DNA of 64,000 nt from Lentisphaerota bacterium (lineage in GTDB: Bacteria; Verrucomicrobiota; Lentisphaeria; Oligosphaerales; JABHEG01): the NCBI GenBank assembly GCA_018676675.1, contig JABHEG010000121.1:1-64000 (forward strand). The letters are read 5' to 3'. The translations under genes were made by a program, and so were the position numbers. Below the pieces are notes generated by a model, which was given only the letters and a program-made list of their open reading frames with translations, did no database searches and was not told where the DNA came from. Shown here piece by piece: positions 39,094-39,244 of the stretch (within the stretch, counting starts at the first letter, position 1; every line of letters begins with the position of its first letter).

Positions 39094-39244
39094 GGCGGCT
39101 TAGCTCAGTTGTCCTGCCATCCGGCAGGATGAAGTTAGAGTTGCCCGGCTTTGGCCGGCATCGGAATCACCGAGTGTCCGGGTCCTGCCGTTTGGCAGGA
39201 TGAAGTTCGAGCTTGGCCTGCTGATCAGCAGGCTCCCTGAGCCG
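39094..39244 (+). pseudogene. tRNA-Met-like pseudogene interrupted by palindromic inserts
   Basis: Colinear with tRNA 39281-39357: GGCGGCTTAGCTCAGTTG (39094-39111), insert 39112-39133, GTTAGAG, insert 39141-39159, ATCGGAATCA(-TAAT)CCGAGTGTCCGGG (39160-39182), insert 39183-39204, GTTCGAG, insert 39212-39233, TCCCTGAGCCG (39234-39244). Confidence 0.9.

Follow-up and report, generated by a model that had tools for sequence, protein, structure and literature searches.

A palindrome-interrupted tRNA-Met relic and a small GIY-YIG nuclease gene on a Lentisphaerota contig

Small GIY-YIG nuclease genes beside tRNA genes have been described from T-even phages, i.e., SegB and other free-standing GIY-YIG homing endonucleases (PMC2988022, PMC13096335). 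SegB cuts inside tRNA genes at RAWTSGAAC, and the cutting is accompanied by tandem amplification of the tRNA-segB unit (PMC13096335). The RAWTSGAAC site reads as the complement of the T-loop. Here, a tRNA-Met relic split by four palindromic inserts was analyzed at positions 39094-39244 of a 64,000-nt stretch of contig JABHEG010000121.1 from a Lentisphaerota bacterium. The whole stretch is called the window. The relic is probably the left flank of a SegB-like, tRNA-targeting GIY-YIG element and not a free-standing palindromic element. The locus shares the GIY-YIG domain and the tRNA linkage with the SegB kind, and by analogy its enzyme would act in a similar way. Unlike the phage genes, which lie in tRNA clusters, the genes considered here lie on bacterial chromosomes, each nuclease with its own tRNA target. 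They are accompanied by palindrome-bearing tRNA relics, of which the accessible parts of the two papers make no mention for the T-even enzymes. In the open papers searched, tRNA-associated GIY-YIG enzymes were found in phages only, and no bacterial GIY-YIG/tRNA relics with palindromes were found. Within this search, the chromosomal, tRNA-rescuing element with palindrome-bearing relics is apparently an undescribed and widespread type of selfish element.

Two other known systems also use tRNA genes. Group I introns with homing enzymes occupy tRNA anticodon loops, e.g., with the fMet-specific enzyme cited in PMC3984707, and they likewise have the anticodon region of tRNA genes as their target, fMet included. 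In contrast to these introns, the tRNA is duplicated in the present loci and not spliced. A group I tRNA intron was rejected for the window region and 18 such loci, where Rfam gave no intron and no known RNA family besides intact tRNAs and tmRNA. Integrative elements with attachment (att) sites at tRNA 3' ends restore the tRNA by their own partial copy, and a 23-kb island in the window is one of them. However, these elements use tyrosine integrases, leave an unchanged att repeat and carry no palindrome-bearing relics.

The tRNA-Met relics and the GIY-YIG gene of the window

A split copy upstream of the intact tRNA-Met had been reported by an initial annotation of the window, and it is present at that place with every block verified. 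Without the inserts, 67/67 tRNA bases of the copy match the intact gene. The loss of TAAT from the anticodon loop was also correctly reported, but the copy is not otherwise complete, because the last 6 of 77 bases are gone as well. Without TAAT, the relic has no usable anticodon. ARAGORN did not call it as a tRNA and made its sole call at the intact copy. The inserts surround GTTAGAG of the D-loop and GTTCGAG of the T-loop, each of which is preceded by hairpin A and TGAA and followed by hairpin B. The features are listed below. All blocks of the left relic were checked base by base, its hairpins also by folding, and hairpin A in addition by motif search.

39094-39244, + strand: left tRNA-Met relic with four palindromic inserts
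39094-39111, + strand: tRNA text, 5' block of the left relic
39112-39133, + strand: hairpin A of the D-arm, TCCTGCC-ATCC-GGCAGGA (39112-39129), with TGAA
39134-39140, + strand: GTTAGAG, D-loop
39141-39158, + strand: hairpin B of the D-arm, TTGCCCGGCTTTGGCCGG
39159-39182, + strand: tRNA text without TAAT
39183-39204, + strand: hairpin A of the T-arm, TCCTGCC-GTTT-GGCAGGA (39183-39200), with TGAA
39205-39211, + strand: GTTCGAG, T-loop
39212-39233, + strand: hairpin B of the T-arm, CTTGGCCTGCTGATCAGCAGGC
39234-39244, + strand: tRNA text, last block of the left relic
39281-39357, + strand: intact tRNA-Met(CAT); the left att repeat of the island is formed by its 3' part (ARAGORN; Rfam tRNA, 66 bits)
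62196-62246, + strand: right att repeat, an exact copy of the tRNA-Met 3' part (repeat comparison)
62261-62602, + strand: small GIY-YIG nuclease open reading frame (ORF), longest frame, GTG start (PF01541, E = 4.3e-13; ORF list)
62536-62614, + strand: right tRNA-Met relic, consisting of the T-arm with both hairpins (A and B), the acceptor 3' strand, CCA and TT (blocks checked)

The palindrome after each GTTnGAG had been counted as part of a repeated unit. It is present at both sites, but the two hairpin B sequences are unrelated, and the repeated unit is hairpin A with TGAA only. In the window, TCCTGCCNNNNGGCAGGATGAAGTTNGAG gave three matches at up to 3 mismatches versus none in dinucleotide-preserving shuffles. 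The motif TCCTGCCN4GGCAGGATGAAGTTNGAG likewise has three window copies, and zero are expected by shuffles. Two of the copies had been given before and both are real, whereas the third, in the right relic, had been missed. The RNA fold of the left relic, suggested earlier as a check, is far more stable than that of shuffles (-78 vs -56.8 kcal/mol, z -5.3), as is expected of palindromes. By sequence scan, neither a sigma-70-type promoter match nor a terminator match was found near the relic.

The right relic is 92% identical to 39174-39244 over 71 nt. Six of the 71 positions differ, and in hairpin B one T-A pair has become C-G, which hints at selection on pairing and does not prove it. The right relic sits directly behind, and partly within, the small GIY-YIG reading frame. 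The 3' end of this ORF enters the relic, and its stop is the TGA of the tRNA text CCCTGAG. The ORF is stand-alone and scores 49.8 bits against PF01541 (cut-off 22.6). With respect to kinship with SegB, the matches were weak, and were to phage endonuclease families (best E 1e-4) and to UPF0213 structures (E 0.008). The context that the initial reading lacked is this gene together with the intact tRNA.

The integrase island (39309-62250) lies between the left and right relics, with 51-bp exact att repeats in tRNA-Met. Its cargo is a phage-type tyrosine integrase (60689-62119, - strand) beside the right repeat, type I restriction-modification genes, a RhuM-like protein and a primase (Prim-Pol/DUF3987). 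The att repeats, the integrase and the other island genes make it an ordinary island with its att site in the 3' end of the tRNA gene. When the island is excised in silico, 39281-39308 and 62196-62246 join into a full tRNA-Met. With the outer flanks joined, the order before the island was relic, intact tRNA-Met, GIY-YIG gene and 3' relic within ~600 bp, with about 50 bp between the intact tRNA-Met and the GIY-YIG gene. The island split an older GIY-YIG/tRNA arrangement.

The 14.1-Mb genome of the window contains five short (<150 aa) GIY-YIG genes, and all five lie by a tRNA-Gln, tRNA-Pro, tmRNA, tRNA-Leu or tRNA-Met gene. Another GIY-YIG match, the sixth, is 189 aa long and lacks a nearby tRNA. 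Hairpin-bearing relics are also found in this genome at the tRNA-Leu (D-loop and anticodon loop) and tRNA-Gln (T-arm) GIY-YIG loci. At tRNA-Pro (L013, 1298-2060) and tmRNA (L016, 1026-1880), a second GIY-YIG family lies between structured direct repeats of ~110 nt, i.e., CCTTCGCTC...GAAGGATG-TCC...GGA...GAGCTACGGATGGCA, which start right after the tRNA CCA.

Short GIY-YIG loci and tRNA relics in other genomes

In the phylum, 97 short GIY-YIG loci were picked by protein score alone and compared with 19 UvrC-type controls. A tRNA or tmRNA gene lay within 600 bp at 60/97 of the short loci and at 0/19 of the controls (Fisher p 1.5e-7), nearly always upstream and on the same strand. A partial tRNA copy of at least 15 nt was present in 17 of the 51 loci testable for such copies. 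At the breakpoints of these 17 relic loci, stems of at least 6 bp were found in 21/30 cases versus 302/2720 background segments (p 8.5e-14). L065, L066 and L108 scored negative in this test, yet contain bulged palindromes. Nearly all of the survey relics adjoin GIY-YIG genes, and most have the palindrome exactly at the break. The short palindromes in tRNA loops that were first noticed in the window are real and occur in the same way in many genomes.

The relics are arranged as intact tRNA, GIY-YIG gene and 3' relic, as 5' relic, GIY-YIG gene and intact tRNA, or with relics on both sides. The last order, with a hairpin in both relics, is seen at tRNA-His (L054), tRNA-Ser (L100) and tRNA-Pro (L083). 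Usually, the palindrome replaces or splits the anticodon arm. At tRNA-Ser loci, a double hairpin stands at the identical point (CTNG^AAA) in distant hosts and with differing sequences. T-loop palindromes as in the window occur at L134, L156, L187, L193, L195 and L314. At an orthologous tRNA-Pro locus of one genus, the left relic is present in some members and absent in others. Repeat units occur with and without the nuclease gene. L084 has two tandem relic-GIY units ahead of an intact tRNA-Ser, and in L311 an intact tRNA-Pro and a truncated GIY start enclose a relic unit.

Two to three short GIY-YIG genes or several hairpin tRNA relics stand in tandem at one tRNA gene in L124 (G292:C17:828-1734), L084, L199 and L220, which suggests repeated insertion or amplification. 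The tandem amplification with SegB (PMC13096335) resembles the units of L084 and L124. In L316 (G274:C20), an array of tRNA-like hairpin relics has two different palindromes per unit, and neither a tRNA nor a GIY-YIG gene was detected within the stretch examined.

A total of 85,488 species genomes were scanned for an fMet anticodon loop followed by TCCCG..CGGGAT. Relics of tRNA-fMet with a palindrome were found at 103 loci (128 matches) in at least six phyla, although the pattern presets part of the palindrome and the uniformity is partly ascertainment. Pairing extends beyond the preset bases in 111/128 matches, a GIY-YIG frame was detected near 81/128, and four fMet loci that came from the protein search alone (L021, L050, L086 and L092) also carry the palindrome. 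By their records, the hosts are Verrucomicrobiota (most), Acidobacteriota, Planctomycetota, Armatimonadota (Zipacnadia), Patescibacteria lines, Lentisphaerae, Kiritimatiellota and others. The recurrent form is CATAA^TCCCGC..GCGGGA. In most fMet loci, the relic is directly joined to the nuclease frame, and the ORF ends at the relic's own TAA. At the tRNA-fMet site of L160 (Akkermansia metagenome-assembled genome, contig CAMCFL010000360.1), one palindrome is nested in another, TCCCG(TCCCGCCCTGCGGGA)CGGGA.

In a nuclease tree of 109 sequences, which has few columns and weak deep support, the tRNA targets are clustered, i.e., 30 changes versus 50.8 when shuffled, with 0/200 shuffles as low. The fMet enzymes group together in 53/57 cases, and one fMet clade spans several phyla. 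The target and the palindrome therefore travel with the nuclease across phyla.

Origin of the palindromes and the proposed mechanism

The initial annotation had proposed to search the genome and related genomes, and had taken a motif found only here as evidence against a new element. No exact motif was found elsewhere in the 14.1-Mb genome, whose three copies all lie in the window, nor at up to 3 mismatches in 60 relatives, nor in IMG/VR contigs. The narrow claim was lost by this result, whereas the broader pattern of palindromes in tRNA relics was kept. Related TCCTGC-stem palindromes showed no clear excess in the same genome (37 vs 22 in the reversed control), and the TCCCGC palindrome was rejected as a dispersed repeat of this genome (6 vs 9 in the control). 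In several Verrucomicrobiota genomes, the fMet-type palindrome is dispersed (166 vs 2, 111 vs 1 and 57 vs 2 with the reversed-pattern control). One 32-nt palindrome occurs in both orientations at different tRNA relics and at one non-tRNA place (L309, L320 and L323), and one has the same sequence in species that are 65-68% alike in the flanks. None of 20 palindrome regions sampled from one genome, G418, was near tRNA or GIY-YIG genes, which makes it less likely that every palindrome of this kind is an element end. The relics may have recruited host palindromes, or the palindromes may be element end structures that sometimes go astray. In G418, TCCCGC-N4-GCGGGA palindromes, dispersed ~57 times in that genome, were also found at 1522 and 1641 of L273, inside a gene that we take to be RNase P RNA from its conserved sequence.

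The dispersed repeats, including those within the RNase P RNA gene, and the 32-nt copies in both orientations fit a tiny REP/MITE-like palindromic element that is autonomous and inserts, independently of any nuclease, at conserved D- and T-loop motifs. This was close to the initial proposal of a self-contained [hairpin]-GTTnGAG-[hairpin] element, which is not supported. In the window genome, its motif occurs at three tRNA relic sites only, GTTnGAG is the tRNA's own D- and T-loop text, and anticodon-arm palindromes elsewhere lack it. Since nearly all survey relics also stand beside GIY-YIG genes, mostly with the palindrome at the break itself, an autonomous palindrome is quite unlikely. Neutral decay is unlikely too, i.e., that a duplicated tRNA left by the element gained functionless palindromes by hairpin-templated (template-switch) mutation, tRNA genes being rich in inverted repeats. 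Nested and mutually complementary palindromes speak for it, as in L160 and in the right relic, where hairpins A and B pair together, and so does the tRNA text that is left, since its unchanged sequence points to a recent origin. However, palindromes of different sequence take the same position and form in different phyla, both in the fMet form and in the tRNA-Ser double hairpins, and a 32-nt palindrome stayed identical between species while its flanks did not. The very stable fold, and the direct joining of relic and nuclease frame here and in most fMet loci, would also suit a functional RNA, e.g., a decoy or regulator of the nuclease or of tRNA processing. This is very unlikely, because no conserved overall structure was seen between relics of different tRNAs, no Rfam match above the cut-off was found besides the intact tRNAs and tmRNA, and no promoter-like site was found upstream of the relic.

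A SegB-like GIY-YIG element remains the probable source of the window relic. Its nuclease would cut tRNA genes in or near their loops, and repair would copy in the element together with a part of the tRNA. By such homing, one intact tRNA would be regenerated, keeping the host alive, and the piece of tRNA that was displaced would remain as the relic. Tandem tRNA copies could lead to repeated insertion and amplification. The palindromes that occupy the relic loops would most likely block tRNA function, re-cutting and loss by recombination; alternatively, they may mark the element ends. A palindrome in each loop, as in the window, would end the life of the relic as a tRNA and alter the cut region.

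Several points weigh against this reading. The intact tRNA keeps the loop sequences of the relic, and a loop-cutting nuclease should hit the element's own tRNA, which would escape only if the cutting is weak or context-dependent. No near tRNA was present at 37/97 short GIY-YIG loci, and a clear relic was present in only 17/51 tRNA-adjacent loci. No homologue of the exact window element was available with its flanks; a 64%-identical homologue (P0002) is present on metagenome contigs. In Verrucomicrobiota, similar palindromes are scattered at a distance from tRNAs and GIY-YIG genes, and hence the palindrome is not necessarily a part of the element.

If the SegB-like element is real, the combination of tRNA, GIY-YIG gene and palindrome-bearing relic would explain many odd tRNA pseudogenes in uncultured bacteria, as well as their tRNA-overlapping 'GIY-YIG nuclease family proteins'. 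Homing of the SegB type, linked to tRNAs, would reach from phages to the chromosomes of at least six bacterial phyla, and would provide an example, amenable to testing, of a selfish element by which an essential tRNA is broken and then restored. The loci would also be a tangible starting point for the question of how short palindromes in bacteria arise and move. A wider idea is possible but doubtful: a new and widespread class of tRNA-resident bacterial mobile elements, in which the GIY-YIG enzyme opens tRNA-gene loops (perhaps extruded as hairpins), the palindromes are the end structures of the element itself, moved both in cis and in trans, and each insertion restores the tRNA. Such an element would act in essential genes as a natural 'cut and rescue' drive, with the small nuclease-less units as non-autonomous forms and the dispersed palindromes as solo ends.

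Comparison with described palindromic repeats

The REP or RPE palindromes with RAYT transposases are similar in that they are 20-40 bp long, may be located within genes and are presumed to be mobilized in trans by a nuclease (PMC3733652). Unlike them, hairpin A has TTG or GGG on one side and TGAA on the other and carries no GTAG/CGTC end tag, the neighbour is a GIY-YIG gene instead of an HUH tyrosine transposase, and there are no dispersed copies in the window genome. REP membership was rejected for the missing tetranucleotide and for the copy number, i.e., 3 copies only, all in the window. The integron attC core pair (GTTRRRY / RYYYAAC) was also rejected, because GTTAGAG and GTTCGAG end in G, GTTCGAG has no purine after GTT, and both are tRNA text. 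A match to either family, which had been considered in the initial annotation, was thus not obtained.

The dRS3 repeat of Neisseria is ATTCCC-N8-GGGAAT. Its form is very similar to ATCCCGC-N4-GCGGGAT of the fMet relics, whereas the window stem TCCTGCC differs; we know of no dRS3 in tRNA relics or with GIY-YIG genes. Elsewhere in the window, at 9710-9897, four direct copies (CAGGAAGACCGCTTACG...) follow each other with a spacing of 38 nt.
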